Source: Amaurobius ferox (taxonomy: Eukaryota; Arthropoda; Arachnida; Araneae; Amaurobiidae). Taken from it: a DNA stretch of 64,000 nt. Below the pieces are notes generated by a model that saw only the letters and a list, made by a program, of their open reading frames with translations, was not told the DNA's origin and did no database searches. Positions 6,776 to 59,405 of this stretch are shown in pieces. Numbering within the stretch: the stretch's first letter is position 1; each line of letters opens with the position of its first letter. A program made the position numbers and the translations under genes. The DNA is taken from assembly GCA_951213105.1 (NCBI GenBank), contig OX578142.1:119817354-119881353 (forward strand), given 5' to 3'.

Positions 6776-6900
6776 CTGCCATAAAAGTTTGCAAAATCGT
6801 GGTTCATAGCGTTCTTGCTGCCACTGTAGTTATCGGCTATCCCCTACTGACGCGCTTATGTACAAAACCGGTCTATAAATTCTGTTATCTCCAAATGAAG
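6776..6900 (+). ncRNA. Fossil hammerhead ribozyme motif (copy a)
   Basis: An upstream helix I strand (CTGCCACTGTAGTTAT) is followed by a catalytic-core-like CTGACGC, a short stem-loop and ACAAAACCGGTC, then TATAAATTCTGTTATCTCC. Compared with the type I hammerhead core CUGANGA...GAAA, position A9 is C and G12 is A, so it should be inactive. The palindromic ACCGGT of helix III followed by the cleavage-site C is kept. The left flank (AAGTTTGCAAAATCGTGG) is like that of the copies near 38.8 and 49.9 kb. Confidence 0.6.
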
Positions 6901-7740
6901 TTAAATCCAAAATTTTAAATTGATCCCATAAAGCAAGTTCAAGGACTGTAATATTAACAAATGCATTTTTATGTTTGAAAAATTCACAAATATCGATTTT
7001 TAACTATTATTTATGCGAGATATTTATCTGATAACGGCCAAAACTAGAAATTTTTCTGCATCTATCGGAAATTACAGTTTATTGTTCCATTAGCGCTAAA
7101 GAGAGTAAATCATTTCACTCAATTTTATTTCAGTTTAAACATTCTTGAAATTTTTCATTTAATACATTTGCCAGATTGCGTCTTTACATAAAATAGCTCG
7201 AAGCCTAGACTCAATGTCAAAAGGTAATGATTTTGTCTTCCAATTGTGTCATTAATAGCAGAGTTTCTCTCATACATTCATATCGGTTTTCAATATTTCA
7301 AACTTTATTCTATTCTTTATCAGGAAGACTTCTTTCATAGCAACGATTTTTCCTTTTGTCTTTATTTTTGTGCTTCATTCTTCTCATTGTTTTAATTTTA
7401 TTTATTGGAATAAAAATCATTCAATCTTAAATTTTCTAAAGGGTAAGATAACATGATTGACAAATAGTATCAGAAGAGGCAAAAACGATTTTGTCAAGTA
7501 TAAAGACCGGTTAAAATAGCCAGCACGGCAAGATGAAGTACCATTAATTTCTCAGTTACCTACAGAAAGCAGCACGTAGTGATCATGGTTATAATATGCA
7601 TTATTTTGTGTACCAAGTATACTTGGAGAAACAAGTTTTTTGAAGATAGTTGTAACTGTAAAGCAAACACGAAACGTAACAGCCCGAAAACAAACAAAGA
7701 AATCACAGTGTAAATAAAGAAATCACAATAAATTGAGATG
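6901..7740. other. Non-coding AT-rich stretch; one shared repeat fragment
   Basis: About 7195-7330 is a diverged copy of 40495-40630 (both have a TCAATGGCAA/TCAATGTCAA word, GTCGTCCAATT/GTCTTCCAATT, TTCTCTCATAC/TTCTCGCATGC, and GATATTTTGAATTTTATT/AATATTTCAAACTTTATT). Nothing else is recognised. Confidence 0.45.
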
Positions 7741-9757: not shown

Positions 9758-9779
9758 ATGAACTTTTGTTATGATTAGA

Positions 9780-15077: not shown

Positions 15078-15081
15078 CAAC
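15078..15081. repeat. Target-site duplication, left (CAAC)
   Basis: CAAC directly precedes the 5' TG of the left LTR and is repeated at 26388-26391 after the CA end of the right LTR. A 4-bp duplication is in the range made by Ty3/Gypsy integrases. Confidence 0.75.
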
Positions 15082-16318
15082 TGTCATGTCGCAATTCTGC
15101 GCCATGAGCCTTTTTGTATTTTCTGCAAGAGAAACATCCTTCTCTCCGTTCGTGCCTGTACAGTGTTTTTACTAACACTTGTTTCCATTGAAATTACATT
15201 AAAAAGCGCATTTCGTCGAAAAATCGTTGGATTGTCTGGACTTAGTGTCTGGCCGGGATGCGTGACGTTTGCTCGCTGTTGCCGAGGAGGAGCGCGCCGT
15301 CCAATCAGGAAGAGGCGCATTTTTTGCGAAGGAGAACTTTGCGTGGGCTCAGAGGACCCATGCTCTCCTTCTTCGTGCTGGAACACTTCGACTGAAAGGT
15401 CGCATCGAAGGTTTTGTCTAATTTAGACAAAGGATTTAGCCGAAATGGCTAACTGGCGGAGATGGGCATTTTGGTTCTAAAGGAAACCGCCCCTGTATTT
15501 TCTGGAGATGATTGAAGAAGATCCTGGATACTCACATTAATTATGCTGTACATCTTTTCTAAAATTTGTTTTTTCATTCCAGGAATCGTATCCGACACCG
15601 ACTCCGGATTCGAAGGAGTTGAGTAACGGTTGTACGAGTCGAGGCATAATGGTCGCATGACGGAACTTAAAGATTTTGGATTCTCCCTGGGAAAAACCTC
15701 CCTGTGAACATTTTTGAAATCCCGTCTCAAAACCGTGATTACCTGATGCGAATCTGTTGCTCCAAATTAAATAAAATTAAGAGATCAGGTAAATTTTCCT
15801 TTTACCGGGATCAATGATTCCGAGGCAGCACTGGCATAACGAGGACCAACCTCTAAATTAAATGGCTCATGTTAAATGTATTTTTGGTTAATTAAATTTA
15901 GTATTGGAAACCATATGAATATTGAATTGAAATTAATGTGATATATAAAATTTGAACAGAGCAGATATCCTGATTGTTAATACATAAATAAAGCTCTGAC
16001 TATAATTAGATAATTTGAAGGATAAATAGATATATATATATGCTGTGGAAATTCTTAAAATAAATATTGATTATTGATTGAGTGACAATTGAGCCATGTT
16101 TTTATTGTGTTATGTTTACTTTACTCACTGTACTTCATTTAGGATTAATTCTCCTAAACTGGGATAACTCCTTTAGATCTTGAACCTGGTGGTTTTGTTG
16201 TTAAATTTTTGAGACTAGATATGTTAAATATGTGTCTCTTTGGCTTTTTGAAATTACGATCACGAAGTTGTGGGTGGTGGAGTCGGTAGGTGCTGTTTGT
16301 ACTGACCCAGCTCCCACA
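15082..16318 (+). repeat. 5' long terminal repeat
   Basis: Begins TGTCATGTCGC and ends CTCCCACA. Nearly identical to 25144-26387. It contains AATAAA at 15987-15992 as a candidate polyadenylation signal. The open frames inside it on both strands are simply duplicated in the other LTR and are not genes. Confidence 0.95.
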
Positions 16319-16320
16319 AA

Positions 16321-16340
16321 TTGGTGCCGTATCCCTTTCC
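16321..16340 (+). promoter_or_regulatory. Primer binding site of the Gypsy element
   Basis: TGGTGCCGTATCCC starts four bases after the LTR end. A TGG start is expected because it pairs with the CCA tail of a tRNA primer. I cannot name the tRNA from memory with confidence. Confidence 0.65.
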
Positions 16341-16925
16341 CAGAGTATTACAGTGAGTGGAGTATAAATTTATGAAAGAGTGCAAATTTTTTATTGTGAT
16401 TATGTATATTGCGGTGCTGAAATATCAAAGTAAGTTGAAAAATTCTTTTGTGGTGCAAAATATTTGAGTTAATGGGCATGAAAATTTTTGTTTATGTGTC
16501 ATATAGTAAATAAGTGCAAAAGCACAGAAGCCCAGATGCACCAGAGTATTATTTGCATGATTTAATTTGCATATTACATGTTGAAATTGTGTTACATATA
16601 TATTTTGAGGTACTTGACATACATAAATACAGAGTTCTATATGATATATGAGTAAATTGAAATTTCCAAATACACACACATTAAAACGTAAATACATGAA
16701 GTGCATACATTTATTTTGAAAAGTGAATACAAAAGTTCTGTGCACATGCAAAAGTGATTCGAAGTTCATGATAATGAACAAAAAGTGAAAAAGTTACACG
16801 TTGTGTTTTTCAGTGCTCTGTTTACACATAAATAAGTGATTTAAGCGAAAGTGAAACCAATTTTCCACAATAAACTGTGCTTCGTGATAAATTTGAAATT
16901 TTCTGGTGAAAAACCTTGTGCTAAA

Positions 16926-17564
16926 ATGCCTAAATCTAGAAATACGAGAGCAAGCAGGAGTAAAGACTCCTCTGCTCAACCAAGAGTGTCCAACCACCGT
17001 ATCCCTTCGGTGTCTCCACCACGACTTTCTCCAAATGCTGGCAGATCGGCTTCCGCTGTCAGAGACTCTAACAAAATGAAAATTGGAATTGGATCACAGT
17101 TCCTTGGATCCATTCCAAGTTTTGCTGGCAATGCAAATGAATCTTTTCACGAATTTTTGGAGAAATTTCTTCTTGTCGCTGACCATGCCGAATGGTCTAA
17201 TAGAGATAAAATTTTTGTGTTGAAATTGAAGTTATCTGGTCGTGCTGAAAGACTGATAAAATCCATCCCGAAACTAAACCAAAGCACGAATTTTTCAGAA
17301 TTGGTGAATACACTCAAGGACAATTTTATGAAAAAAGAAAATATTGCCAAGAATGTCGCTTCCCTGGTCAATTGTAAACAAATGACAAATGAAAGCGTAC
17401 GTGATTATGCGAATCGAATAGAGGCCGAATCCTATGTTGCCTTTCCGCAAGATGTTGTGTCTGATAATGAAGATTCCTTGAGAACTGCTATTTTGCTCAA
17501 CTCTTTTAAAAAAGGGTTAAAAAGCCTTTTTAGAAAAGCCGTCTTGTCTGCTAATCCACAGTAA
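16926..17564 (+). CDS. gag: Gag (capsid part) of the Gypsy element, cut by an in-frame stop
   Basis: Structural protein that would package the element RNA. I place the start at ATG 16926 (context AAAATG), because the upstream open codons to 16851 lack an ATG. The N-terminus is basic and Ser-rich (MPKSRNTRASRSKDSS). The middle has a retrotransposon Gag capsid-like fold signature: FAGNANESFHEFLEKF near residues 60-75, WSNRDKIFVLKLKLSGRAE, then a helical tail through LNSFKKGLKSLFRKAV. The frame closes with TAA at 17562-17564 after 212 residues. The same frame continues without interruption into FEAAKEIAILEEE, which looks like the normal continuation of a Gag C-terminal domain, so the stop probably lies inside gag and not at a natural gag-pol border. 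Readthrough is possible but not shown. Confidence 0.85.
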   Translation: MPKSRNTRASRSKDSSAQPRVSNHRIPSVSPPRLSPNAGRSASAVRDSNKMKIGIGSQFLGSIPSFAGNANESFHEFLEKFLLVADHAEWSNRDKIFVLKLKLSGRAERLIKSIPKLNQSTNFSELVNTLKDNFMKKENIAKNVASLVNCKQMTNESVRDYANRIEAESYVAFPQDVVSDNEDSLRTAILLNSFKKGLKSLFRKAVLSANPQ

Positions 17565-17627
17565 TTTGAAGCTGCGAAAGAAATTGCAATATTGGAGGAA
17601 GAAGTGCAAAATGAAGTGCTGGAAGAA

Positions 17628-20600
17628 ATGACAGAGGACATAAATACAGTGAGAATTGAAAAAGACACTAAACAGGAAATTGAAGAGTTGAAGAATGAAT
17701 TAAATTTAAAGAAGAAAGAATTTGAGAAATTAAGAAGAAAATTTGGTGAAAATTCAGAAAAAAGAAAGAAAAGACTGAATGAAATAAGAGAAGATCTGGA
17801 AAAGAGCAATTCCAGTTTTGAAGAATCTTTCCTGGATACGCCCTCTACAAGCAGATACAAGGAAAATGAATTGGAAGAAGAAGATTGGGAAGATATTCCA
17901 GTAAAGAAGAAACATAAACCATCAACATTTTTCAGAACTTCTACACCATCCAAAAGATCTGAAAGTAGAAACCGTTTCAGTCAAAGAAGAATTCCAGTTG
18001 CCTCACAGGAAGAAGAGTGGTATGTTAAAAGTCCATATCAAAATTATTCTCCAAGGAAAAACTCTCATATTTTTAGAAGACCTTTTCGTAACAGTTCATA
18101 TAGAAATTCAAATTTCCAGAGAAATTTTTCAAATTTTAGAAATTCTTTTGATAATTATAAATCACAAAACTTCAATAATTTTGGATATAGAAGAAATAAC
18201 AGATATTTTAATAATAGATTTGGTAATAGAAGGCAATTTAGAAGACAAAATTTTAGAACACAAAATTTTCAATCTCCACTAGTTAATAGACGAAATTCTG
18301 AAGTTAGTTTCATGACGGAAATAGAGGATCCTTGCCAAAACAATTTTCCTATTATTCAAGTTTTTGTTGAAGATGTCACACTAAATGCCTTAATCGACAC
18401 TGGAAGTTCTATAAACATTATCTATAGTGATGCTTTACACAAAATCAATCCGAGAAAAGTACAATTAAAGCATACATCCACTATTTTGAGAGGAATTGGA
18501 AGTCAAAATATTTTGGTTGAGAGAAAAGCTTCTTTTCCCATTATTATTGGAAATGAAAGAGATATGATTGAATGCTGCATTTTAAATACACCTGCCCCAG
18601 GAAGGTACAACATGATTTTGGGAAATACATTTTTACATGAGAAACAAGTGACAATTACTTATAGACATAAACGTGTGAATTTTTTGTACTGTAGTATTCC
18701 TTTTACTGAATTTACCGAATCACAAAGTTTTACTGTGATTTCTGATGATGTACAATTTAAACCAATCGAGAGTTATGCAATAAGCCATGATTTTGACAGA
18801 AGAAATTACAATTTTACAAATGATGTAGATTATAGATCCAAAGACACAAATTTTTCAAGAAATTATGAAAATAAGTGTAATAATGGATATTTATTTGAAC
18901 AAAACAATTTTCATAATGAATTTAGAGATGTTGATTTTAGAAATTTTGATGCAAATGGAAATGAAAGGTCAAATTATGAATGTGAAAATGATTTACATGA
19001 AAGACAAATGAATGACAATGTACATACAGACAGATTTTTGACAAAAGACAATACCAGTAACAATGAAATATTTCAGACAGATTGTGATAAACATGATGGA
19101 GGAAGTTCACAACAAAACCAGGCAATAGGGATTGCCAAAGCTTTCAACAAATGTGTTCTACACCCATTTTCAGAATCTTTTATTAAATTAAAAAGAAATT
19201 ACAAAATTGAAAAAGACACGACAATTTTACTTGAACCTATCAATAATAAAGAATTTTCTGCAAACAAAATTTTCATCGCCAGAAGTATCCACAAAATTCC
19301 TGAAAATGACTTTTTGTATGCTAAAGTTGCAAATCCATCTGAAAAAGTTGTTTATATAAACAAAGGTATGAAATTGGGAACTTTCGAAAACATCCATGAA
19401 TCTGATATTGACATAAATAATAGAGTTGACATTGAAAACTGTATTGAAGAAAATGAAACATTTGATGCATGGGGAGGAGATTTTGATTTGAAACATATGA
19501 ATATTGCACAAAAAAATTTGCTTTTTAAATTACTAAGTAAATATAAACATGTTTTTGCTAAAAATATGAAAGAATTGTCTGGATGTGACACTATTTTGCA
19601 CGAAATTAATCTTGAATCTAACATACCTGTTAGGCAAAAGCCATACCGCATTCCACATAATTTACAGAAAGAACTTTCACGCCAGGTAAACGAACTCCTT
19701 GATGCAAAAATCATTCAGCGCAGTACATCACCTTACAATACTCCAGTGCTTTTTGTGAAGAAACCTGATGGAAGTTACCGTTTGGTAGCGGATTTTCGAA
19801 AGCTCAATAAGATCACTATTGTTGAGAACTATCCGATTCCAAATATATCGGAATTAATCGATAACTTGTCTGGAGCCTTGTATTTTTCTACCCTGGATCT
19901 AACCAGTGGATTTTACCAATTGTGTTTACATCCTGATGATTACCCAAAGACTTCTTTTTCAACACCTGATGGCCACTTTGAATGGACCAGAACCCCATTT
20001 GGTCTTAAGAATGCGCCTGCATCCTTTCAGAGACTGATGTCTCTGGTGCTGGCTGGCATATCTGGAATTTACATAGATGACATTATAGTTGCTTCAAGAA
20101 CATTCGAAGAACATTTGGAAAAACTAGAAGAGATTTTTGTAAGATTAAGTAAACATGGTCTTAAATTGAAACCAAGTAAATGCCATTTTTTCAGAAAAAC
20201 AATTAAGTATCTTGGATTTTTGGTATCAAATGGAAAAGTACAACCTGATACTCATAATTTGGAAGTTGTAGAGAAATTCAAAATCCCTAAATCAATTAAG
20301 AATGTGAGACAATTTCTTGGACTCACCGGATTCTATAGAAAATTCATAAAAGACTATGCAGAACTGACTTTGCCATTAACAGAATTATTGAAAACTAAGA
20401 ATAATGAAAGCAAAAAGAAATTTATTTGGACTAATGAAGCTCAAAAATCTTTTGAAATTTTAAAAGGAAAACTTCTATCAAAACCTATTTTGACACTTCC
20501 AGATTTTAGAAAACCATTTATTTTACATACTGATGCTTCAAATCACTCTTTAGGCTGTTATTTGTCCCAAGAAGATGAGAATAAAATTTTGCATCCAATA

Positions 20601-22601
20601 TCTTACGCAAGCAGAAAGCTTAGCGAAGCAGAATGTAAATACAGTGTTGTCGAAAGAGAAGCATTAGCTGTTGTTTGGGCTACAAACTATTATAAACATT
20701 ATTTAATTGGAAAACCTTTCACAATTTTTTGTGACCAAAAATCTTTGTCCTTCGTATTTAAATTAAAAGATCCTACATCTAGATTGGCAAGATGGATTGC
20801 ATCTCTATCACAATTTGATTATCAAATAGTACATAAACCAGGAAAAGCAAATGTTGTTGCTGATTATATGTCAAGAAATGTAGATGAATGTACAAATACT
20901 ATTGACAATATTCCACAAAGATTTGTGTCACAATATAAAGTTATAAATCAAAATGTTAATCAGAATTTTCCAAGTGTAAATCAAAGTTCTCAAAGTTCTA
21001 ATAATGTAAACAATACTAATAGTAGCAATAGAAGAGAATCAGAAGTCAATTTGAATCCAGCAAATACAAATGAAGAAAATGAAATTTGTGCTGTTAATAA
21101 TAATGAAAGTGAAATGCAAAATGAAAATAACATACAAATTGGTCAATTGGAACAAACATTTACTTGTCCTACTTTGCTCATAAGAATTAAGAATGCGCAA
21201 AAATCTGACCCAAGGTGCAATAAAATTATAGATCTCTTAGATAAAAACATAAAACCTTACCCACAAACTTTGGTATTTTTTAGAAAAGATGATATCCTGT
21301 GGTGTACTCACAAACACCCAAAGCGTAGACATCAAGAACAAGAAAGAGTTGTTGTTCCGCAGGAACTTGTGTCTGAAATTTTATGGTTACATCATGACTG
21401 TCCCACTTATGCACATTGTGGATTTAGAAGAACTTTAGCTTCTGTAAGTAGAAAATATTTTTGGCAGGGAATGTATTCCCAAACACAAAATTATGTTGCA
21501 TCATGCGAAATTTGCGTGGTAAATCGTGGCTTTAGAAATAACAAAGCACCCATACAAAGATTTTCGAAGTCCACATACCCATTTGAGCGTATCGCCATGG
21601 ATTGTGTCGGACCATTACCTATATCAAGATCTGGAAATAAATTCATATTGGTCATAACTGACTATTTTACAAGATGGCCTGAAGCATATCCCTTAGCTTC
21701 AATTAAAACTGAAGACATTTTAAGTTGCTTAGAGCACTACATGGCTCAGCATGGTATACCTAAATTCATCGTCTCGGATCAAGGGACGAATTTTGTTTCT
21801 AGAACAGCAAGATGTTTTTATAAGAAATTAGGAATAATAAAGAATACTACTACTGCCTACATGCCATCTGTAGACGGTTGTGTTGAAAGATTAAATGGTA
21901 CTTTGATCAGATCCTTGAAAAATATTGCATATAACGATAAAGATAATTGGGATAATCTGATACATTTTGCTTTATTGGCACATAGAAATGCCATACATGC
22001 TTCTACGGGTGAATCGCCTGCTTATTTACTCTATGGTAGAGATTTAACAGTTCCAAATACGTTGATCGCTGGATTTAAACCTCCGACATATGAATCAACA
22101 TATGATTATGGAGAAGACATGAGATTCCGACTTAAAAGAACATATGATGTAGTAAAAAGTAACTTAGAAAAAGCTGAAAACTCACAAATTTTACAACAGC
22201 ATAAGAAAGCAAAGATGCCCAATATTAAAGTTGGTGATTTAGTGTATCTTTACACTCCCTTTTTACCTCAAGGCCAGTCAAGAAAACTGAGCTCCTTTAA
22301 TAAAGGTCCTTTTAAAGTGATAAAACAAACTTCTGCTGTTAACTTTTTGATCAGACATGTGATGAATCCCAAAAATGAACAACTGGTTCATGTGAACAGA
22401 CTGACTCTTTTACCTCCAAGAAGAGAGGAATTGCAAAAATTTTCAAAACAAACTACTGAAAGTCAAAAATTGAACTCTAAGTCAAATAAACTTACTCCAG
22501 TGATCACCGCTGAGAAAGACTCTGTGAAACTAAAATCGTGTTTAGCGAATCCTGCAGAAAGATCTCAAAACAAAAAAAACTGTGAAAAGAGTAAGATTTA
22601 A
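17628..22601 (+). CDS. pol: Pol polyprotein (with Gag C-terminal region) of the Gypsy element
   Basis: In the same frame as gag, open from 17565; first ATG 17628, giving about 1657 residues. Order: coiled-coil Glu/Lys-rich stretch (residues 1-80); Arg/Asn/Phe-rich basic region (about 130-220) that may replace a nucleocapsid, as no CCHC knuckle is present; aspartic protease ALIDTGSS with DTG at 257-259; reverse transcriptase with VADFRKLN, TPFGLKNAPASFQ and YIDD at 815-818; RNase H with TDAS near 969 and EREALA; integrase with an HHCC zinc module starting near 1255 and catalytic Asp 1325, Asp 1384, Glu 1420 (D-D-35-E); then GPFKVIK and QLVHVNRLTLLP, a usual Gypsy C-terminal block. All catalytic residues are present. 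A linker of about 250 residues between protease and RT is Asn-rich and unassigned. Translation initiation is uncertain because of the upstream stop. Confidence 0.95.
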   Translation: MTEDINTVRIEKDTKQEIEELKNELNLKKKEFEKLRRKFGENSEKRKKRLNEIREDLEKSNSSFEESFLDTPSTSRYKENELEEEDWEDIPVKKKHKPSTFFRTSTPSKRSESRNRFSQRRIPVASQEEEWYVKSPYQNYSPRKNSHIFRRPFRNSSYRNSNFQRNFSNFRNSFDNYKSQNFNNFGYRRNNRYFNNRFGNRRQFRRQNFRTQNFQSPLVNRRNSEVSFMTEIEDPCQNNFPIIQVFVEDVTLNALIDTGSSINIIYSDALHKINPRKVQLKHTSTILRGIGSQNILVERKASFPIIIGNERDMIECCILNTPAPGRYNMILGNTFLHEKQVTITYRHKRVNFLYCSIPFTEFTESQSFTVISDDVQFKPIESYAISHDFDRRNYNFTNDVDYRSKDTNFSRNYENKCNNGYLFEQNNFHNEFRDVDFRNFDANGNERSNYECENDLHERQMNDNVHTDRFLTKDNTSNNEIFQTDCDKHDGGSSQQNQAIGIAKAFNKCVLHPFSESFIKLKRNYKIEKDTTILLEPINNKEFSANKIFIARSIHKIPENDFLYAKVANPSEKVVYINKGMKLGTFENIHESDIDINNRVDIENCIEENETFDAWGGDFDLKHMNIAQKNLLFKLLSKYKHVFAKNMKELSGCDTILHEINLESNIPVRQKPYRIPHNLQKELSRQVNELLDAKIIQRSTSPYNTPVLFVKKPDGSYRLVADFRKLNKITIVENYPIPNISELIDNLSGALYFSTLDLTSGFYQLCLHPDDYPKTSFSTPDGHFEWTRTPFGLKNAPASFQRLMSLVLAGISGIYIDDIIVASRTFEEHLEKLEEIFVRLSKHGLKLKPSKCHFFRKTIKYLGFLVSNGKVQPDTHNLEVVEKFKIPKSIKNVRQFLGLTGFYRKFIKDYAELTLPLTELLKTKNNESKKKFIWTNEAQKSFEILKGKLLSKPILTLPDFRKPFILHTDASNHSLGCYLSQEDENKILHPISYASRKLSEAECKYSVVEREALAVVWATNYYKHYLIGKPFTIFCDQKSLSFVFKLKDPTSRLARWIASLSQFDYQIVHKPGKANVVADYMSRNVDECTNTIDNIPQRFVSQYKVINQNVNQNFPSVNQSSQSSNNVNNTNSSNRRESEVNLNPANTNEENEICAVNNNESEMQNENNIQIGQLEQTFTCPTLLIRIKNAQKSDPRCNKIIDLLDKNIKPYPQTLVFFRKDDILWCTHKHPKRRHQEQERVVVPQELVSEILWLHHDCPTYAHCGFRRTLASVSRKYFWQGMYSQTQNYVASCEICVVNRGFRNNKAPIQRFSKSTYPFERIAMDCVGPLPISRSGNKFILVITDYFTRWPEAYPLASIKTEDILSCLEHYMAQHGIPKFIVSDQGTNFVSRTARCFYKKLGIIKNTTTAYMPSVDGCVERLNGTLIRSLKNIAYNDKDNWDNLIHFALLAHRNAIHASTGESPAYLLYGRDLTVPNTLIAGFKPPTYESTYDYGEDMRFRLKRTYDVVKSNLEKAENSQILQQHKKAKMPNIKVGDLVYLYTPFLPQGQSRKLSSFNKGPFKVIKQTSAVNFLIRHVMNPKNEQLVHVNRLTLLPPRREELQKFSKQTTESQKLNSKSNKLTPVITAEKDSVKLKSCLANPAERSQNKKNCEKSKI

Positions 22602-22845
22602 TTTGCCAAATAAAAGGGTAAATGAAAATGCTGTTCATACTGGATCAAACTTTCATGCTAATAGAAGTCAACAATATGCACATAGAAATAATTCAAATAA
22701 CTTTGATAATAGAGGAAATGGAAGAATCATTTACAACAATAACTTTAGAAATAATTATACACCACACCAAAATCAGTATTACATGACAAACAGAAATACA
22801 CGTACACCTTATAATCTTAGGAATAAAAGATTTTCACAATATTAA
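22602..22845 (+). pseudogene. Probable out-of-frame C-terminal tail of Pol
   Basis: An open frame one base off pol overlaps the pol end and runs to 22845. It is Asn/Arg-rich and finishes with TPYNLRNKRFSQY; a Y-N-L-R tail is common at the C-terminus of Gypsy Pol or Gag-Pol proteins. The frame change falls at an A8 run at 22572-22579, a typical slippage site. I read it as the natural tail shifted by a one-base indel, not an independent gene or env. A sequencing error in the homopolymer is an alternative. Confidence 0.5.
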
Positions 22846-25128
22846 ATTTTGGTTGAGTTCACAATTTTTCAGAAATTAAATTTTGCAAGAAAGATTTCAT
22901 TTTAAGTTAAAGTTTACACTTGTTTAAGTTTTATATTTCAATATTGTCTTTTAAAATAGAATTTATGAAAAAATTGTTGTGATTTTAAAAATTTATTGGA
23001 AATCTTGCATTAAGTTAAAAAAGTAAATAAGTAATTGATTTTGTGAACTATAATTTATGAATGTTTATATTATAATTTAAATAATAAATAAATTTGTTAA
23101 TTGACTCTCCTTGGACTTTAAAATTTTTCGAGAGTCCTGTCTTGATTGACTTTGATTATATTGATGTGTTTTAATGTAAAAATGTTTGATCATTTGTTTA
23201 AATTCATTAATGAAAATAATTAAAATGGTGTTGGTAATTTAATTGTTCCCCTAAGTAAAAGGGAGGAAATCTTGATTTTCTGAAGGAAATTTTGAATTTT
23301 GGAAAAAGTAAATGATTTTATTAAAATAAAATTGAAATTAAAGGTGAAATTAATATAAAGTAAATATAAAGAATTTAAGTAATTGAAATAAATTAAGTAA
23401 TTTGAAAGTGAAAATGAAAAGTTTGAATTTGAAAATTTTTGAAAATTTAATGAAATTTTTTTTTGAAGATCAAAAATAAATGATCTCTTTTGAAAAATGT
23501 TTTTGAAACTTTGTTGCTGAGAGAGGTGAAATTTTTGGCTGATGTGTTGTTGAAATTCTGTTCTCTTGAAATTCCATTTCACATTGTTGTTTTTTTTTGA
23601 CCAGCAGTTTTCAAACATCTACACAAATTTCAGTTAGACATCATATTTTTATGCTGCAACCCCTTTTTCTGAAAGCTGGCTGGTGGACGCAAACATGGAC
23701 ATATTTACATTGGATCACAGATGAAGAAGCAGCTTAGCAAATTAATTGTCCGAACTTTTGTGGCAGGACTGGAGTCCTGGACGACAACTTGCTCCGAGCC
23801 TACCTAGGACGGTTGTGATTGGCCAGGTGGGAAACTGGTGAAGCTATGAGGATGATGATGATGAAGAAGATGATGATGATGTTGGGATCAGCGCAAGCTG
23901 CCCAAAAATTTTGATGATATCCGTGCTTCTGAGGCGTGTCCTGGCGTCCTGTTTCTGCTGCAATCGCTTCCTGCACGCGAGTATTTTTTTTCTTTTTTCT
24001 ACACCCCTTTTTTTTTTTTTTTTAGTGTTGGCAACTCGTTAGTCCCCGCCGAGTTTGCTCTTTAGATGTGTTCCTGCTCTTTTACATAACTGACGTGAAT
24101 TTCAGGAGAAATTTTTCTCCTTCTCTCTCTCTCAGTAGACAAATGTATATAAATGTAAATTTTTGTTTGTGACATGAAATGGTCACTTGTTGAGTTATTA
24201 CAGAGTGAAATTTGTTAAAAGTAAAGTAAATTGAAATTTTAAGATAAATTAAATAATGTAAATAAATGAATAATTTAAAGTAATTTATGAAAGTTGAGTC
24301 AGAATGAGAAAATTCTGAATTGTCTTGATGACAAAAATAAGTTGAATTAAAGTTAATGTTAAATTTGTTGAATAAATGATGAAAGGTTGAAAAATTGAAA
24401 GTAAATGTAATTTAAAGTTAATGTGTTAAAATGAAAGTAATTTAAAGTGAAAGTTAAGATTTTAATGAAAGTTTTGAAATGAAAAATTGAAATTGAAAAA
24501 TGGAAATATTGAAAGTGACTTTGTTCTCAAAAAGTGAGACAAATTTTTGAATGAGTGAAGAATCTCATTTCCTGAATATGACAAATTTAATTTAGAAATT
24601 AATTTTCAAAATATTTAACCTTTTGATGAAAATTAAGAAAAATTTTTGTGTCACTTGTGTGTGTTTGAAAGTGACAATTGTTTGAAATTGTTTGAATTTT
24701 GAATTGTTTATATTGTTAAGTTTGTAAATTCATATTATATCATATTTTATTTTTCATATCACCTGATTGATCTCAATGTGGTTGATTGAGATAGTGTGTT
24801 GTCAGGCAAATTGCCTTAACAAATTTTCTTCTGATTTAGTGTAATTTTATGTAAATTTTTGTAAAGGTTCCTTTAAGATGTGGTGACGCCTTGTCATCCT
24901 TTCGGTTTTCTTTTGGTCTTTTCCTGTGGTGATGAATGGCTTGGCCGGTCATTCAGATCTGCAGTGCCGTTGTCTTGAGAAACGTTGGGGCCCACGTTTT
25001 CTCGCCCAAAATTTTGGTTTAAATTATTTTACACTTACAGGTTCCTAAAACTCCTTGTAAATTTTTGTGTTTTTGTGTTTTGAGTGAGAGAAAAATTTTC
25101 CTCACTGCGTTCTGAAAATTTTTGCCTC
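22846..25128. other. Long non-coding 3' region of the Gypsy element
   Basis: About 2.3 kb between pol and the polypurine tract without a credible frame; no envelope-like signal peptide or membrane segment. It is composed of repetitive GAAA/TTAAAG/TGAAAT phrases, a GATGATGATG tract near 23850-23880, and T-rich runs near 23990-24022. Confidence 0.7.
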
Positions 25129-25143
25129 CCAGAAGGGGAGAGC
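25129..25143 (+). promoter_or_regulatory. Polypurine tract of the Gypsy element
   Basis: AGAAGGGGAGAG immediately precedes the TG start of the right LTR. This is the expected site and composition for priming plus-strand DNA synthesis. Confidence 0.8.
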
Positions 25144-26387
25144 TGTCATGTCGCAATTCTGCGCCATGAGCCTTTTTGTATTTTCTGCAAGAGAAACATC
25201 CTTCTCTCCGTTCGTGCCTGTACAGTGTTTTTACTAACACTTGTTTCCATTGAAATTACATTAAAAAGCGCATTTCGTCGAAAAATCGTTGGATTGTCTG
25301 GACTTAGTGTCTGGCCGGGATGCGTGACGTTTGCTCGCTGTTGCCGAGGAGGAGCGCGCCGTCCAATCAGGAAGAGGCGCATTTTTTGCGAAGGAGAACT
25401 TTGCGTGGGCTCAGAGGACCCATGCTCTCCTTCTTCGTGCTGGAACACTTCGACTGAAAGGTCGCATCGAAGGTTTTGTCTAATTTAGACAAAGGATTTA
25501 GCCGAAATGGCTAACTGGCGGAGATGGGCATTTTGGTTCTAAAGGAAACCGCCCCTGTATTTTCTGGAGATGATTGAAGAAGATCCTGGATACTCACATT
25601 AATTATGCTGTACATCTTTTCTAAAATTTGTTTTTTCATTCCAGGAATCGTATCCGACACCGACTCCGGATTCGAAGGAGTTGAGTAACGGTTGTACGAG
25701 TCGAGGCATAATGGTCGCATGACGGAACTTAAAGATTTTGGATTCTCCCTGGGAAAAACCTCCCTGTGAACATTTTTGAAATCCCGTCTCAAAACCGTGA
25801 TTACCTGATGCGAATCTGTTGCTCCAAATTAAATAAAATTAAGAGATCAGGTAAATTTTCCTTTTACCGGGATCAATGATTCCGAGGCAGCACTGGCATA
25901 ACGAGGACCAACCTCTAAATTAAATGGCTCATGTTAAATGTATTTTTGGTTAATTAAATTTAGTATTGGAAACCATATGAATATTGAATTGAAATTAATG
26001 TGATATATAAAATTTGAACAGAGCAGATATCCTGATTGTTAATACATAAATAAAGCTCTGACTATAATTAGATAATTTGAAGGATAAATAGATATATATA
26101 TATTCTGTGGAAATTCTTAAAATAAATATTGATTATTGATTGAGTGACAATTGAGCCATGTTTTTATTGTGTTATGTTTACTTTACTCACTGTACTTCAT
26201 TTAGGATTAATTCTCCTAAACTGGGATAACTCCTTTAGATCTTGAACCTGGTGGTTTTGCTGTTAAATTTTTGAGACTAGATATGTTAAATATGTGTCTC
26301 TTTGGCTTTTTGAAATTACGATCACGAAGTTGTGGGTGGTGGAGTCGGTAGGTGCTGTTTGTACTGACTACTGACCCAGCTCCCACA
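25144..26387 (+). repeat. 3' long terminal repeat
   Basis: Near-identical to 15082-16318 with one 7-bp tandem duplication (TACTGAC) near 26365 and two substitutions. Candidate polyadenylation signal AATAAA near 26049. Ends CCCACA, followed by the CAAC duplication at 26388-26391. Confidence 0.95.
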
Positions 26388-28504: not shown

Positions 28505-28895
28505 GATGATACCCAGACCCTCCGACCTACCAGAAAGATGTAAGGTAACTGTTTGGATGCCCGGAAAATGCCACCCAATTTAGACCGGAACCCAGTGGGG
28601 GAAGCATCCACAGGGGCCGTACCCTCCTTCCCCTAAATGTGCCAACAGCCACCAACCTCTCGGAAGGACTTACAGACCCACATGTTTAACGTGATTGTAC
28701 TCCGCATGAACACGGTCGCAGTTGTGGCAGCGTGCAAATTCAGCGCGCAAATCACCGGGCAACCGCTTCCGAAATGTGCCAACAGCACGCGGTGTTCCCA
28801 GGTGGTCACCCACCCAAGTACTAACCGCGCCCAATGCTGCCTGACTTCGGTGATCTAACGAGAACCGGTGTTTTCAGCACGGTAAGGCCATTGGC
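28505..28895 (-). mobile_element. SINE with a 5S rRNA head (S2)
   Basis: On the minus strand, 28895 to 28778 (118 nt) is a recognisable full-length 5S rRNA: it starts GCCAATGGCCTTACC, contains GATCACCGAAGTCAGGCAGC, the C-box-like GGGTGGGTGACCACCTGGGA, and ends GTGCTGTTGGC. It is followed by a body (GTGGGTCTGTAAGTCCTTCC, GAGAGGTTGGTGG, CCACTGGGTTCCGGTCTAAA) that also occurs, with a different head, at 53445-53720. The 5S type III promoter would drive Pol III transcription. This makes it a SINE3-type element, not a 5S gene: substitutions in the 5S part and the attached body support that. Confidence 0.85.
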
Positions 28896-38429: not shown

Positions 38430-38655
38430 ATAAATTCTTATCCCCCCCCCCCCCCCGTTTGCACTGATTTATTTTTAAAATCATTCAAAATTAATAGGCA
38501 AATGATGTGTATCAACTGCCTGGTCATTTGTAATAAATAAATAAATCATTCAAAATTAATCTGAGGGGGGGGGGGGTTGAAGACCCAGACCGTCCGACTC
38601 GTCTTGAGGACTTGAGTATCCATTTGGACGGCCGCCGGGGGGGGGGGGATTGTGT
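38430..38655 (-). repeat. G/C homopolymers flanking a SINE tail fragment
   Basis: A C run at about 38443-38457, then G runs at about 38565-38577 and 38636-38649. Between the G runs, 38577-38632 on the minus strand matches the 3' part of the S2 body (GTCCAAATGGATACTC...GAGTCGGACGGTCTGGGTC compared with ATCCAAACAGTTACC...GGTCGGAGGGTCTGGGTA). ATCATTCAAAATTAAT occurs twice around the interval. Confidence 0.5.
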
Positions 38656-38888
38656 TTTTAAACATTGCCTTTGCAGTTTTGTATGGCCTGAGTTAAAATG
38701 TAAATGAATTTTTTGCCGGTCTCCAAAAAAGACTGAAATTAGCCGTTCCCACGGAATTTCGCAAAAATTGTGGATTACAGTAAATTTCTTGCTGCCATTG
38801 CAGATATAGGTTATACCATGCTAACGAGCCCATAATAAGCATGAAACCGGTCTATGAATACTGGCATATGCAATGGGAGTGTCTAAAT
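38656..38888 (+). ncRNA. Fossil hammerhead ribozyme motif (copy b) with its 5' flank
   Basis: Helix I strands ATTGCAGATATAGG (38797) and GGCATATGCAAT (38863) flank a core CTAACGA (38821-38827), stem II with the loop ATAATAA, GAAAC, then CGGTC. G5 of the core is A, which should abolish catalysis. The upstream 130 bp (CCTTTGCAGTTTTGTATGGCC, GACTGAAATTAGCCGTTCCC) matches 49755-49850 upstream of copy e. Confidence 0.7.
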
Positions 38889-39059
38889 TAATTCATAAAT
38901 TAATTAATTAATTTTTGTTGCAACTCGTACAAAAATCCTTTTGAAGCCATTGTTGAGATGACTTGATGAAGTTTATTCCCGCGATTCCATTGCTAATTGT
39001 CGTGATAGAAAATGAATGTTTAACTTCAACATTGCATTATTCCCCAATGGTCAGGCACT

Positions 39060-49430: not shown

Positions 49431-49473
49431 TTCATCTTAAAGTAATAGGGATGGTCTTACTTAAGAAGACACT

Positions 49474-49560
49474 CCCATTGCAGATAAAAGTATCCATGGA
49501 CCGGTTTTGCACTTATTATGCACTCATCAGTATGAAATAACCGTTAACTGTAATAGCTGC
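49474..49560 (-). ncRNA. Fossil hammerhead ribozyme motif (copy c)
   Basis: On the minus strand an intact CTGATGA core is followed by a stem II GTGC/GTGC with the loop ATAATAA, then AAAACCGGTC and CATGGATAC. Helix I extends to ATTACAG/CTGCAAT. The only core defect I see is G12 changed to A. Opposite orientation to copies d and e. Confidence 0.75.
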
Positions 49561-49599
49561 AAGAAAACTTGCTATTTGCCACAATTTCGAGGGAACTGA

Positions 49600-49700
49600 C
49601 AATTTCTGTAATTCCATGTAGCCGGCATAAAATCCATGCTGATGAGCCTATAATAAACGCGAAGTCGGCCCATGGATACTGTTATCTGCAATGAGAGTGC
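49600..49700 (+). ncRNA. Fossil hammerhead ribozyme motif (copy d)
   Basis: CTGATGA at 49639-49645 and GAA at 49661-49663 are intact; helix I keeps CCATG/CATGG. Helix III reads GTCGGCC where other copies read ACCGGTC: the 15.1-16.1 pair is G-C in place of the conserved A-U. Catalytic capacity is therefore doubtful but the core is the best preserved in the window. Confidence 0.75.
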
Positions 49701-49882
49701 CTCCTTACTTTTTAGGAAAACCCCATTCTGGTGAGTTCTTGGGGTTCTTAACCTGACCTTTGCAGCTTCGTGTAGTCCGAACTAAATTGTATACATATTT
49801 TATGCCCGGTAAGTAGAAGGACTGAAATTGTCGGTTCCCTTAGAAGTTTACAAAATTACGGCAAATAACAAGTTTTCTTACT
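49701..49882 (+). repeat. Linker between hammerhead copies d and e
   Basis: Contains GAGAGTGTCCTCCTTACTTTTTAGG then CCTTTGCAGCTTCGTGTAGTCC and GACTGAAATTGTCGGTTCCC, matching the 5' flank of copy b at 38656-38796. The distance between the d and e cleavage sites is about 271 bp. Confidence 0.65.
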
Positions 49883-49985
49883 GCTATTGCAGGTAACATT
49901 TATTTCATGCTAATGAGCAAATAATAAGCACGAAACCGGTCTTGAATACTGTTATCTTCAATGGGAGTGTCCTTCCTATTTTGGA
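49883..49985 (+). ncRNA. Fossil hammerhead ribozyme motif (copy e)
   Basis: Long helix I: ATTGCAGGTAACA (49885) faces TGTTATCTTCAAT (49950). Core CTAATGA (49910-49916; G5 is A), stem II with ATAATAA loop and GCAC, intact GAAACCGGTC ending at 49941. The G5 change should inactivate it. Confidence 0.75.
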
Positions 49986-50129
49986 AACGCCCCTTTCTGG
50001 AGGGTGTCGTACGGTTTTGATAGTCTTATTTGTTTTGTCGGCAAAAAACAAGTATAAAACAAACATTTAATTAATAGAACATTTAGTTTCTAGTTTATAA
50101 TTTTGACGATTTTCTTTGACCATTTCCCC

Positions 50130-54416: not shown

Positions 54417-54449
54417 TTTAGTAAACGTCAATCTTGTGTGTCACTTCTC

Positions 54450-54560
54450 GTTTCGGATTGGCTGGACGGTTCTTCATGTTGCTTTCCGATTGGCTCTCTC
54501 TTAATTCAGATCTTGGGTATATAACTCCCTCTGGTTCTTGCTTTTGCACCCATTCGTCTT
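54450..54560 (+). promoter_or_regulatory. Probable Pol II promoter of the LINE
   Basis: Two inverted CCAAT boxes (ATTGG at 54457-54461 and 54489-54493) precede a TATA box TATATAA at 54518-54524, 48 bp before the ORF1 start codon. A mirror-image TTATATA lies at 54388-54394, facing away, so the pair could form a divergent promoter. Confidence 0.6.
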
Positions 54561-54571
54561 TCAGTTACGTC

Positions 54572-56347
54572 ATGGAAGCGACAGTAATAGGTTGTGCGAA
54601 CGCTCCGCTCCCGGAGGAGAGCGATGTCCAGCTAGCGACCGGAAACTGCGTCAGAGACGGCAGGAGTATGAATCACTCCGGTCTCGTAGATCCTGTACAT
54701 GAAAATGCAAACGACGATGAAATCAGCGCTGGAGATATAACTCTAACTGAACTGGATAAAGTACGTGAATCGTTTGGAATAATAAACGACAAGATTATGA
54801 TTCTGGACTTGAAAACAGAAAAAACTACTGAAAATCTTGCTGGATATAAGCAACTGCGTCATCAAGCTGATGTTGCGTTTAGTGCTTTGGAAAATATGGC
54901 CACCATGTTAAAAAGAGGTATTTTTGAATCTGATTCTCTAGTTAATTTTGATAGCAATCTTAAGGCTGTGATGGGCAACGTTAATGTAAATGTTGTAAAT
55001 AATAATACTGTTGATAATTCTGTAAATGTTGTAAATAATGATATTGCTGATAATAATTTTAATAATAATGTTAATATGTTAAATTCTGAAAGCAGTAATG
55101 CTGTAAATAATATGCCCAGATCGATGAGAACGATAATCAGAAATGCTCAAATTGTAAATAATAAAGCTGGAACTAATATTCATACAACAAATAGTAAATC
55201 AATTAAAAGTAAACTACTTACATCTATGCAAAATATTGTAAATAATAATTCTAAACTCTCCGAAGTCATGGAGAAGATAGCCAATGTTGAAATTAATGAA
55301 ATTGACCCCAAAAACACTAAAAAACGGCTATTTGAGCCAATTGACACTGAATTCTTAACCGCTGAAGATTTCACGGTAGTTGAAAGATCTAAAAGTAAAA
55401 AGAATAGAAATCTTAAACCAGAAATGCCCACCCTGAGCGGGAATCGCTTTAGCGCTCTCGCTCAGGAATCACAGCCAGGGACTTCGAGCGAGGTTGACCC
55501 CCCTCTTAAAAAAGCGAAAGAGCCGCCAACTATTAGGATCCCTCCGCTACTGGTAAATCCAGGACACGACGATTGGCCCTCAGTGCCTGCGATGCAGAGA
55601 CGATACGACCCTGATCTACGTTGTAGACAAGACAAAGGCTTCTTCAGGATTATTGTAAATACTGAGGACCAATATAGGGCCTGCACCAATTTCATGAAAG
55701 CACAAGGAGTGCAATTTAAAACCTTCAGCCTGAAGGAGGACAGGCCCCTAAAAGTCGTGATCCGTGGACTACCAATAGCCACCAAAATTGAGCAAATTAC
55801 TAATCACGTTAATGCAGCTGGACATTCTGTCATAAGTAACATCATAATGACTAAAAGAGGTAGCAAGGTACCTCTTCCCCTTTATTATTTGCAAATTGCA
55901 CCCGGGCCTAACTCGGCGTTAGTTTATAATACAACTTCGCTCTTGGGCACGGAAGTAAAAATTGAACTCTACACAGGGCGCAAAGGCATGGCATCTCAAT
56001 GCCATCGCTGTAATACCTACTTCCATAGTAGCGATGCATGTACCATGCCACAAAAATGTGTGCGCTGTGCAGGGCCTCATTTCTCCAGAGATTGCAAGGC
56101 TGTATACCTCCGCTGCTCAAACTGCGGTGGCGATCATGCAGCAAACTGGCGTGGTTGCACAAGAAATCCGGGCAACATTTCCAAACTCAAGAGCCGTAGG
56201 AACTCCCAATCAGACAAGATAGGTGCCCCTCCCCCTCCCACAATACCGAAGTGGGCAAAGTCAACCAGCTCGATATCCAAGTGTTACCAACAATTTTTCA
56301 TATTCAGCCATGGTCACTGGAAAACCCAAAGAGCAAAGCTTTTCTAA
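54572..56347 (+). pseudogene. LINE ORF1 (Jockey-clade Gag-like protein), frameshifted near its end
   Basis: Nucleic-acid-binding protein of a non-LTR retrotransposon. I choose ATG 54572 (CGTCATGG context, 54 bp after TATA start). Low-complexity Asn/Val region about residues 136-185; a Lys-rich segment; then the block FFRIIVNTEDQYRACTNFM and VVIRGLP that precedes zinc knuckles in insect Jockey-type ORF1 proteins. Three knuckles follow from residue 477: CHRCNTYFHSSDAC, CVRCAGPHFSRDC and CSNCGGDHAANWRGC. The frame ends at 56347, but the natural continuation (VTNNFSYSAMVTGKPK and on to 56558) lies in another frame, so a one- or two-base indel lies near 56250-56290. Otherwise intact. Confidence 0.85.
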
Positions 56348-56558
56348 ATCAAAATCCGTGGTCCCAGAGGTCGCAGATTCTTCGGCTAACAAAATTGATT
56401 ATATCACGGTGCTTTCGACACTAATTAATATAAGAGATCCCCAAAATAGGGAAATTTTGCTTCAGGCTTTTAAAGAAGCCTTACAGGAACAAACTGCGAC
56501 TTCGAGTATCCAGATGATTTGGATCATCTACGAGCACTACGTTAGACTCGCTGGATAG
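56290..56558 (+). pseudogene. LINE ORF1 C-terminal part in shifted frame
   Basis: Continuation of ORF1 after the indel: YSAMVTGKPKEQSFSKSKS then DYITVLSTLINIRDPQNREI and ALQEQTATSS, a short helical tail ending at TAG 56556-56558. ORF2 follows after about 45 bp. Confidence 0.65.
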
Positions 56559-56602
56559 GTCTCCTCCCTTTTTCGTTCGCTCTTTCGGCTAGAATCTTTA
56601 AC

Positions 56603-57262
56603 TTGCAGACTCTCAAGATCGGTATTTGGAACGCTAATGGTTTGCGTCCACATATCGATGAGGTGCGTGATTTTGTTATTAATAATGATTTTGACATTTT
56701 TTGCATTAATGAAACCCATCTCCCACCTGGCAATACCCTTAAGATTGGTAACTTTTCGGCATACTTTTCATACAGAGCATTGAACTCTACTCAGAGAAAG
56801 CAGAGTAGGGGGACTGCTCTGTACGTCAAAAATATTATTTCCCACCATAGCATTCATATTCCGTCTTTTTCGCACTTGGAAGCAACTGCGGTCAAAATTA
56901 ATATTCCAAATTTAGTCCCTTTTATCATAGCTTCAGTTCACATACCTCCTAAAAATACTTCCCCGTTCCCCACCGGTGAACTGGAAGCACTTACTAAACT
57001 TAGTAGTAATATGATCATTGCTGGTGACCTAAATTCTCGCCATACCTCATGGGGCAATACTTCGAATAGGTATGGTAATGCTCTAAATCGACTGGCTCAG
57101 CGCGCCAACCTTAGGATTGTAGATTCCAAAATCCCAACTCACTTTTCCACAGTTCAGTCCCATAGTATTCTTGACTTGGCCATTTTTAGACAAATACCTT
57201 ATAATTATGTGATCAGAACTATTAACGAACTTGACTCTGATCACTTGCCTGTGTGTGTGTAA
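56603..57262 (+). pseudogene. LINE ORF2, AP-like endonuclease domain
   Basis: APE-type endonuclease that would nick the target for reverse transcription. Motifs in order: IGIWNANGL (Asn), FCINETHLPP (Glu), IIAGDLNSRHTSWG (Asp/Asn), and SDHLPVCV (Asp-His), all consistent with an intact active site. No ATG precedes the domain in frame, so the true ORF2 start is lost or lies in ORF1 overlap. The frame stops at TAA 57260-57262 and continues in the same frame beyond it. Confidence 0.85.
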
Positions 57263-58919
57263 TTGACCCTTAACTTTCAAAACATTTCTTTAGACCATCC
57301 TGTGGAGCTACATACAAATTGGAATAACTTCCGTTATTCACTTATTCAAACTAGTATCCCACCTCCCAAAATTACCAGCACGGACAAGATTGATAATAGC
57401 GTCCAAAAAATGACTCATTTACTACTTGAGGCAACTGCTGCTACCTCAACTCCTAAAACTACCCCGCCTACTTATCACTTGCTCCCGAGTGATATCAAGG
57501 GCAAAATTAAGCAGCGTAACCGTCTACGGAAAGATTGGCAGCGTACTAGATATCCGACTTATAACGCAGAATACCGTAGACTTAGTAACAAGATCAAGGC
57601 TCTCATTGGTGCACACAACCAGCAACGCTGGAAAACACACATTGGAAAACACACATTGCTGGAAAACACACATATCTCAACACTTCTGATGGCAGTCTCT
57701 GGCGAAAAGCTAAACAATTAAAAAATAATAGAGCACATATCCCGCCCATTAATGGCCGACACGGACTCACCCAGACTGAGGAGGAAAAAGCTAATGCTAT
57801 TGCAGATAGCTTGGAACTCCAGTTCTCCCCACACACGGATCCTAACTTCAGCCACCTTTTCCACAATATGAAACTAAAACACAGCTGACCAATACAACTG
57901 CACTACATGCTCAAACTCAAAACGACCTACAACAAACAACACTGGCTGAAGTCTTATCTATTTTCCTCAAACTCAAAATTAAGAAATCTCCTGGTATTGA
58001 TCGGATTAACAACCGCATCATTAAAAACCTTCCCCTCTCCTTTATCTGCTAAATCGCCGCTCTAGTAAACAAAATGCTCGAGCACCGCTACTTTCCCCAA
58101 AGCTGGAAAACTGCCACTGTGATCCCTCTTCTAAAACCAAATCAGGATAGCTCTCTTCCTGAGAGTTTTCGTCCTATTAGTCTTCTCTCCAGCTTGTCTA
58201 AAATTTATGAACTTGTGTTGCTCAAGAGATTAGATAGTTTCTGCAGGTCCCACCAAATTCTTATTCCTAATCAACACGGCCTCTGATCTGCTTATTCCAC
58301 TCAGACCCAGCTTATGCGTATAGTAGAAACTATACACACCAACTCTAGTAACAGGCAGTACACTGGTATAGTGTTCTTTGATATTATGAAAGCCTTTGAC
58401 AAGTGCTGGGTCCCGGGTTTAATTACCAAGTTGGTGTGGCTTGGCATATCAACCCAGTTACTTACTATCATCAACTCGAATCTCAATAATCGTTCTTTCC
58501 GCGTGCGAGTTGGTACTTCCCTCTCTTCACCCCGACCGATCAATGCAGGAGTACCTCAGGGAGGAAACCTCAGCCCCCTGCTTTCCAACCTATACATCAA
58601 TGATATGCCACATATTCCACAGGTTAAACTCTGCATTTTTGCAGATAACACCGCAATCATAGCCCGCGCTGGCTCTCCCCTCAACACGGTCAACACACTA
58701 CAAAGCTACATCACACACAGCCTTGAGCGCTGGCTCGTGCCATGGAAAATCAAAATTAACGCTTCCAAGTCTAACGTAGTTATTTTTAAACTTCACTACA
58801 GAGCAATCTCTCATAACTTTCAAATCAAAATCTTTAATGAAAATATCCCTTTCAATCACGCTGTAAAATACTTGGGCGTCACACTTGACGCTCACATGAC
58901 ATTCAGCACCCATATTTAA
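57263..58919 (+). pseudogene. LINE ORF2, reverse transcriptase domain, inactivated
   Basis: Reads on from the endonuclease with several lesions: a frameshift and short duplication (GGAAAACACACATT repeated) near 57630-57690, another shift near 57885, and in-frame stops near 58048, at 58284-58286 (TGA, an expected Arg position) and 58917-58919. Reverse transcriptase motifs are clear: KKSPGIDRINNRIIKNLP, SFRPISLLSSLSKIYE, FFDIMKAFDKCW, INAGVPQGGNLSPLL, and FADNTAI, where the second catalytic Asp is Asn (codon 58647). Dead enzyme; Jockey clade by motif style. Confidence 0.88.
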
Positions 58920-59405
58920 TTAAAAACCCAATCTGCCAACAAAATTATCACTTCCCTTCATCCCATGCTCTGTGTGAGGTCTCCCTTTTCCCTGGAGAAC
59001 AAGCTTCTCCTTTACAAACAAATCGTTGCACCTATGATTTTGTACGCATGTCCCATTTGGGGAGCTGCTGCAAAATCACATATTGGGAAACTGCAAGTTA
59101 TCCAAAATAAAATCATACGTATGATAACCAATTCTCCTTGGTTTATCCAAAACGAGGTCATACATCATGATCATAAAGTTTCTGGCATTGAAGAGCATTT
59201 TAGATTAATCACCCAAAATTTCTACATTAAAAACTTTGAGAAACCTTGTATGGCAGATACTGATCTCAACTACAATCTTAAACCAGCTAGCAGAAAACGC
59301 AGACCCAGGCACATCTTCTCTGACCCAAGAAGAACTTACGAGCCCAAAACTAAAAGAGCTCGGCTGCCTGACTTGCCTACACTGCCAATGCCAACTGATA
59401 TGTAA
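58920..59405 (+). pseudogene. LINE ORF2 C-terminal region
   Basis: Same frame as the RT after the stop at 58917: LENKLLLYKQIVAPMILYAC and PIWGAAAKSHIGKLQVIQNK match the usual region after the RT in Jockey-type ORF2 proteins, followed by a basic tail (ASRKRRPRHIF, TKRARLPDLP) and TAA at 59403-59405. Confidence 0.8.

Follow-up and report, generated by a model that had tools for sequence, protein, structure and literature searches.

A 271-nt hammerhead repeat, probably a retrozyme, whose genomic copies bear integration marks of Penelope-like elements

Background

The metazoan retrozymes are described as tandem hammerhead repeats of 170-400 nt with circular RNA (PMC7229834). One amphibian retrozyme in that account has a helix III of a single pair capped by a palindromic tetraloop, and the amphibian motifs are said there to be most effective as dimers (PMC7229834); for dimeric cleavage the loop of stem III reportedly has to contain a palindrome and, in eukaryotes, the motifs have to occur in tandem (PMC6466107). 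Small dimeric hammerheads in Penelope-like elements (PLEs) go back to Cervera and De la Pena (2014) and Lunse (2017), as cited in PMC6466107 and PMC7761336. As to the enzyme that moves the animal repeats, one section of a review describes metazoan repeats with no conserved motif that would reveal a helper, and another section suggests PLEs or Terminons as helpers on the grounds of shared hammerheads and co-occurrence (PMC7761336).

For the PLEs themselves, the tail is described as an optional extension of 30-40 bp that marks two start sites of reverse transcription (PMC11167929). Their commonest inversion is given as head-to-head, and inverted head-to-head pseudo-LTRs (pLTRs) with duplications are described (PMC3846280). 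Ribozyme mutants of one PLE are reported to show unchanged insertion in vitro (PMC11167929), and thus the ribozyme may serve the production of RNA units rather than integration.

What is new here is a set of retrozyme copies bearing the integration marks of PLEs. No mapping of retrozyme copy ends is announced in the title or abstract opening of any open-licence paper that our searches listed.

Hammerhead motifs in the window

The window is the whole stretch of 64,000 nucleotides that was analysed. A sequence-only reading had reported three type I hammerhead motifs within it, c on the minus strand and d and e on the plus strand, and direct reading confirmed all three, together with every core lesion that had been named (Table 1). 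Each motif comprises helix I, a CUGANGA-type box, stem II, a GAAA-type box, a hexamer and C17, and the loop AUAAUAA is present in c, d and e. Copies c and e have ACCGGU as the helix III hexamer and d has GUCGGC, still self-complementary with wobbles; C17 of d lies 271 nt from C17 of e. In helix I, some 7 proximal base pairs are followed by an internal loop (as in Hammerhead_HH9) and then by a distal helix, which d does not have because its 5' end is the junction with c.

A profile of c, d and e run with nhmmer found two further copies in the window, at 38.7 kb (E 1.9e-30) and 6.8 kb (E 1.8e-11), and a covariance model made from the five copies retrieves exactly those five within the window. 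The reading had given each copy a lesion of its own; the lesions are present, but they are not strictly private, as e shares G5 to A with the 38.8-kb copy and c shares G12 to A with the 6.8-kb copy. In a tree of the five window copies the informative sites split 4 to 4.

Table 1. Copies of the hammerhead unit in the window, with their cores and candidate target-site duplications
Feature	Positions	Strand	Remarks
Copy c	49462..49633	-	0.68 unit; short 3' site (phase 38); 5' end head-to-head against d
Copy d	49634..49750	+	5'-truncated unit, continuous through 'tail' phases into e; left edge is an estimate at the c junction, the alignment itself beginning at 49603, within c
Copy e	49751..50020	+	One full unit; long 3' site (phase 80, with tail)
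Tail of e (short to long 3' site)	49979..50020	+	
Hammerhead core of c (CTGATGA to C17)	49499..49530	-	Direct reading; G12 to A
Hammerhead core of d	49639..49670	+	Direct reading; 15.1-16.1 is G-C, plus 15.2 C to U
Hammerhead core of e	49910..49941	+	Direct reading; G5 to A
Candidate left target-site duplication, c-d-e insertion	49450..49459	.	9/10 matches
Candidate right target-site duplication, c-d-e insertion	50019..50028	.	2-base overlap with the estimated end of e
Fourth (38.8-kb) copy	38641..38893	+	0.93 unit, short 3' end; core at 38821, G5 to A
Fifth (6.8-kb) copy	6779..6916	+	0.54 unit, most decayed; core at 6847

A search of the window at the Rfam gathering thresholds returned no hammerhead. 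At a permissive threshold Hammerhead_HH9 (RF02275) matches c, d and e in the right place and on the right strand, with sub-threshold scores of 18.0, 15.9 and 15.8 bits against a gathering score of 52; the E-values of 0.83-4.1 apply to 4227 families, and division by 4227 gives about 2e-4 to 1e-3 each for that family alone. RAGATH-1 matches d at the permissive threshold (23.8 bits), and the 38.8-kb and 6.8-kb copies have no hammerhead match even there. The covariance search that had been proposed as a check thus gave nothing above the gathering threshold, with sub-threshold matches at c, d and e.

A simple descriptor, composed after the motifs had been seen, gives c and d 23 points each, a score for which shuffling predicts 0.06 hits per 64 kb (6 in 100 shuffles attained it). 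Taken singly, the other three copies do not reach significance (e scores 18, the 38.8-kb copy 20 and the 6.8-kb copy 9). The majority sequence of the five copies scores 22, a value reached by 6 of 20000 shuffles. The proposed pairs are retained in 74.6% of 138 cells across the five copies, as against 26-35% when the pairing is slid. Covariation beyond that in shuffles was not seen among the five window copies, which is what neutral decay from a common ancestor would lead one to expect.

Folding of single copies gave z-scores of -2.4 for e, the one copy that stands out, -1.35 for c, -1.24 for the 38.8-kb copy and -0.44 for d, while the 6.8-kb copy folds worse than its own shuffles (z +2.4). The distal helix I strands of the five-copy majority, with two ambiguous majority columns filled by hand, pair at -32.5 kcal/mol, and none of 2000 shuffles was as low; for single copies the number of shuffles as low, out of 2000, was 0 for e, 69 for the 38.8-kb copy, 287 for c and 1026 for the 6.8-kb copy. 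Taken together, the five window copies are convincing as hammerheads.

Genome-wide copies and the ancestral core

The source genome (3,564,777,782 bases, or 3.56 Gb, in 276 contigs) was searched with e. The best-scoring 40 of 3417 first-look candidates yielded 53 matches, a lower bound on what is a large copy number. The loci examined are 29 fetched places and the window, with flanks of about 4.8 kb per side for 20 places and 1.5 kb for 9, and the copies in them are among the best matches to e rather than a random sample.

When 37 full-length units are combined into a majority sequence, its core is intact, its 4-bp stem II is fully paired and its hexamer is the palindrome ACCGGU. Among the 51 units with all core columns, from which e and the 6.8-kb copy are left out because of gaps in the columns used, the canonical base prevails in each core position. 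The core is undamaged in 11 units and carries a single lesion in 22, two in 13, three in 4 and six in 1. The recurrent lesions are G12 to A (13 of 51), C3 to T (10), U16.1 to C (7) and G5 to A (6), and the exact hexamer ACCGGT is retained in 18 units. Given a majority base that is canonical throughout the core, an intact hammerhead core in the ancestor is very likely. At the level of the family, then, the repeat has the core of a type I hammerhead (CUGANGA, GAAA, N-U-H and an open helix I), and c, d and e themselves each carry core lesions. The tally and its 11 intact units also support the view, put forward from the letters alone, that a functional ancestor gave rise to copies which decayed separately; part of this decay was via a CpG hot spot, G12 being located in a CpG.

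The sequence-only reading had said in advance that it would fall if d and e lacked an above-threshold covariance match and if, in addition, a genome-wide consensus lacked CUGANGA or GAAA. The first of these came true and the second did not, as the consensus keeps both boxes. The Rfam result is what one would expect if the repeat held no ribozyme and resembled a hammerhead by chance, a reading that we find scarcely credible: the canonical base is the most frequent one in all core columns of the 51 units, and the distal helix of the five-copy majority was equalled in stability by none of its shuffles. Chance similarity was rejected on the descriptor statistics, the score of the five-copy majority and the canonical core of the 51 units.

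The 271-nt unit

The unit is 271 nt long, equal to the C17 spacing of d and e, and the upstream and downstream edges of its majority sequence repeat each other; therefore the unit closes on itself. Its G+C content is 45% in the majority and 39% in e. The longest open stretch is 49 codons on the plus strand and 131 codons on the minus strand, read round the circle. Folded as a circle, the majority unit reaches -91.8 kcal/mol, as against -69.4 (sd 4.6) for shuffles, none of 300 of which was as low; the monomer and circular folds of the decayed d-e stretch are no better than those of its shuffles.

In these respects the unit resembles the non-LTR retrozymes described from coral, mussel and axolotl, which are about 170-400 nt long with less than 50% G+C and a type I hammerhead, and which are tandem, have no coding region and form a circle predicted to be highly self-paired (PMC7229834, PMC7761336). 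It is, as those are, a short tandem unit of low G+C content with a hammerhead and without a coding region. The hexamer ACCGGU, by analogy, fits the description of the amphibian palindromic helix III, although the host looks like an arthropod. The small dimeric hammerheads of PLEs, as described, likewise have a diminished palindromic helix III and tandem copies (PMC6466107, PMC7761336); they differ from our unit in that no reading frame was seen between unit copies here, and in that helix I of the unit is long.

Direct neighbours, with profile hits within 60 bp of each other, were seen in 14 of 30 loci (29 fetched and the window): one unit there comes straight after another, and no coding sequence lies between the two. 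We compared the flanks of the inserts after masking those that adjoin a neighbouring copy. None of 94 flanks shares sequence immediately beside inserts of different places, and therefore the mobile entity looks like the unit alone; 39 of the 94 share other repeats further off. As far as the examined places show, the unit looks like the whole element. No Pfam domain was found in six frames of 48.0-52.2 kb and 36.6-40.8 kb of the window, and the sole Pfam match around the 6.8-kb copy is a Tc1-type transposase about 1 kb away.

Ends and neighbours of the copies

We aligned 32 places to the tandem unit, numbering phase 1 as the first base after the cleavage site, and analysed the ends of the 42 alignments that score at least 60, which cover 31 places; the remaining place, the 6.8-kb copy, scores below 60. 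These copies also furnished the reference to which they were mapped, and alignment ends are accurate to a few bases. Thirty-four of the 42 3' ends cluster at two positions separated by about 42 nt, 16 at phase 33-43 and 18 at phase 78-85, with a nominal p of 1.5e-25 for windows (phase 30-45 and 75-88) that were chosen after the ends had been seen; the other eight are at phases 22, 22, 56, 57, 67, 130, 133 and 236. The 5' ends are scattered across the unit, and 5' truncation is evident. More than half of the alignments (22 of 42) exceed 1.1 units, some of them inflated by overlapping alignments at head-to-head junctions, and the places examined hold scattered short arrays, of about 1-2 units, rather than long satellites.

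One excess stands out among the 5' ends: eight of the 42 lie immediately beyond the tail, at phase 75-88 (p 0.0012). These eight are in L037, L042, L043, L047, L052, L053, L026 and L028, and in L043, L053, L026 and L028 the 40 bases upstream of the 5' end look like a neighbouring inverted copy. The excess could possibly be due to insertion beside an existing tail, or to the 5' end of the template.

Inverted neighbours are strongly biased in their arrangement. Fifteen adjacent pairs (score at least 45, within 200 bp) comprise 13 head-to-head, 2 direct and no tail-to-tail, which makes 13 of 13 inverted neighbours head-to-head (p 2.4e-4). When nhmmer hits lying no more than 200 bp apart are counted, 17 pairs are head-to-head, 17 are direct and 1 is tail-to-tail, the last being in L025, where it is flanked by two head-to-head pairs. 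Candidate target-site duplications with at least 8 of 10 matches flank the insert in 11 of 32 places; mismatched pairs of flanks reach that level in 10.4% of cases (p 2.5e-4). For c-d-e itself, a longer version of the candidate duplication (11/13) was equalled by 63 of 3000 random pairs.

The copies thus have both the pair of 3' ends and the head-to-head copies of PLEs, with a spacing here of about 42 nt, slightly wider than the 30-40 bp given for PLE tails. A PLE pLTR with a tail, as described for Pen2a_Av and for Poseidon of Anolis, shares with them an optional 3' tail (30-40 bp as described, about 42 nt in the unit), an inverted head-to-head copy and a target-site duplication. Metazoan retrozymes as they have been described differ from the unit in this regard, its copies showing PLE-type 3' ends and head-to-head inversions.

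The same ends bear on whether a hammerhead satellite was spread by a LINE-type enzyme or by recombination, with no part for a PLE. Metazoan type I hammerheads in short tandem repeats are described in PMC11722881, where LINEs too are named as possible helpers, but two 3' ends and mostly head-to-head inversions are marks of PLEs in the papers cited here, and short arrays at scattered sites also speak against such a satellite, which we hold to be quite improbable.

The search for a Penelope-like partner

Pieces of PLE protein occur in 2 of the 29 fetched places, and neither adjoins a unit. No reverse transcriptase (RT) plus GIY-YIG gene flanked by pLTRs is attached to the unit in the loci examined, nor is there an autonomous PLE with the unit's ends among the window and the fetched loci. 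Among viral and prokaryote contigs no PLE locus was confirmed.

The unit might itself be the pLTR of an autonomous PLE, its copies being 5'-truncated or solo pLTRs from which the open reading frame was lost or went uncopied. PLEs are described as bearing minimal type I hammerheads in tandem pLTRs (PMC7761336) and as having the tail and the head-to-head copy (PMC11167929, PMC3846280), and the pLTR of A. vaga Pen2a, at 218 bp in its description, is of similar length. An ATG just after the cleavage site is followed by 12 codons to the short end in c, as compared to 12 aa described for the Pen2a pLTR, and the long end lies about 26 codons on, as compared to 22 for Pen2a. On the other hand, the frame in d stops after 20 codons, and we rejected the idea that the cleavage site is followed by the N-terminus of a coding frame, since the conceptual N-termini are unlike PLE proteins (129-189 of 200 shuffles are as PLE-like). 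Set beside the directly adjoining units with no coding sequence between them, the unshared flanks and the fact that, unlike a PLE pLTR, the unit has no RT or endonuclease gene attached in the loci examined, this leaves the pLTR origin unlikely in our estimation.

The window does contain PLE remnants, at 7952-9818 (-) and 9700-13491 (+), which are homologous, 5'-truncated and head-to-head. They are 67-70% identical over the aligned pieces, and the plus copy is interrupted by about 1.75 kb. We considered these remnants as a parent of the unit and rejected them, as their 3' ends are without the hammerhead unit.

A proposed cycle

Our preferred reading is that c-d-e is one old (or closely nested) insertion of a non-autonomous hammerhead retrozyme of 271 nt, for which we propose a Penelope-type RT; we hold this with reasonable though not full confidence. 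Judged from the copies, the retrozyme is probably mobilised by a PLE RT from multimeric or circular RNA, which suggests the workings of a retrozyme combined with PLE-like integration. Cleavage, circularisation and the identity of the enzyme are the parts of the cycle that we infer.

Read-through transcription of tandem copies would yield multimeric RNA. Helix III, consisting of the palindrome ACCGGU alone, would pair with the hexamer of a neighbour, so that cleavage is predicted to occur as a dimer, and the monomer or multimer may then be circularised or left in tandem. A Penelope-type RT would prime at a nicked target and begin copying at either of two internal sites about 42 nt apart, reading upstream through about 1-2 units and halting at varied points. 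Fixed starts and varied stops of this kind would give fixed 3' ends, scattered 5' ends and inserts of more than one unit. Second-strand or self-priming events may add the inverted copy head-to-head at the 5' side.

We lean, by a modest margin of belief, towards regarding the copies as direct genomic evidence that a Penelope-type RT moves animal hammerhead retrozymes, from two fixed start sites on circular or tandem RNA. If true, this would name the hitherto unknown helper of the metazoan retrozymes. Copy ends are in any case an independent line of evidence on the helper of animal retrozymes, and since those seen here show the tail dimorphism and the head-to-head inversions of PLEs, the helper can be tested in other genomes through retrozyme ends.

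Other elements and motifs

The hammerhead pattern was found at two loci in viral contigs. One of them, at L001:50-95 (-), is a hammerhead-like motif that reads CTGATGAG, CGAAACCGGTC; it has an apparent 5-bp helix III and a closing helix I, and the repeat's covariance model matches it with E 0.0052. The other has the look of a chance match. A 17-mer of the unit matched one locus and was rejected, there being no wider similarity.

Elsewhere in the window are a full-length 5S rRNA match at 28777-28895 (-), with 104 bits, and a remnant of a Tc1/mariner-type transposase at about 5150-5806 (-), with HTH_Tnp_Tc3_2 and DDE_3. Frames at 54425-59405 (+), recognised by eye, look like the ORF1, endonuclease and RT of a non-LTR element. 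A Ty3-type retroelement occupies 15028-25488, with an open frame of 1678 aa at 17565-22601. Among the 120 relatives listed for its polyprotein, the closest that are named to species come from Araneus ventricosus, at 49-56% identity, and others among the matches listed reach 76%; by this measure the host looks like an arthropod of arachnid type. The 112-aa minus-strand translations of its end repeats are identical, and the element is thus probably young.
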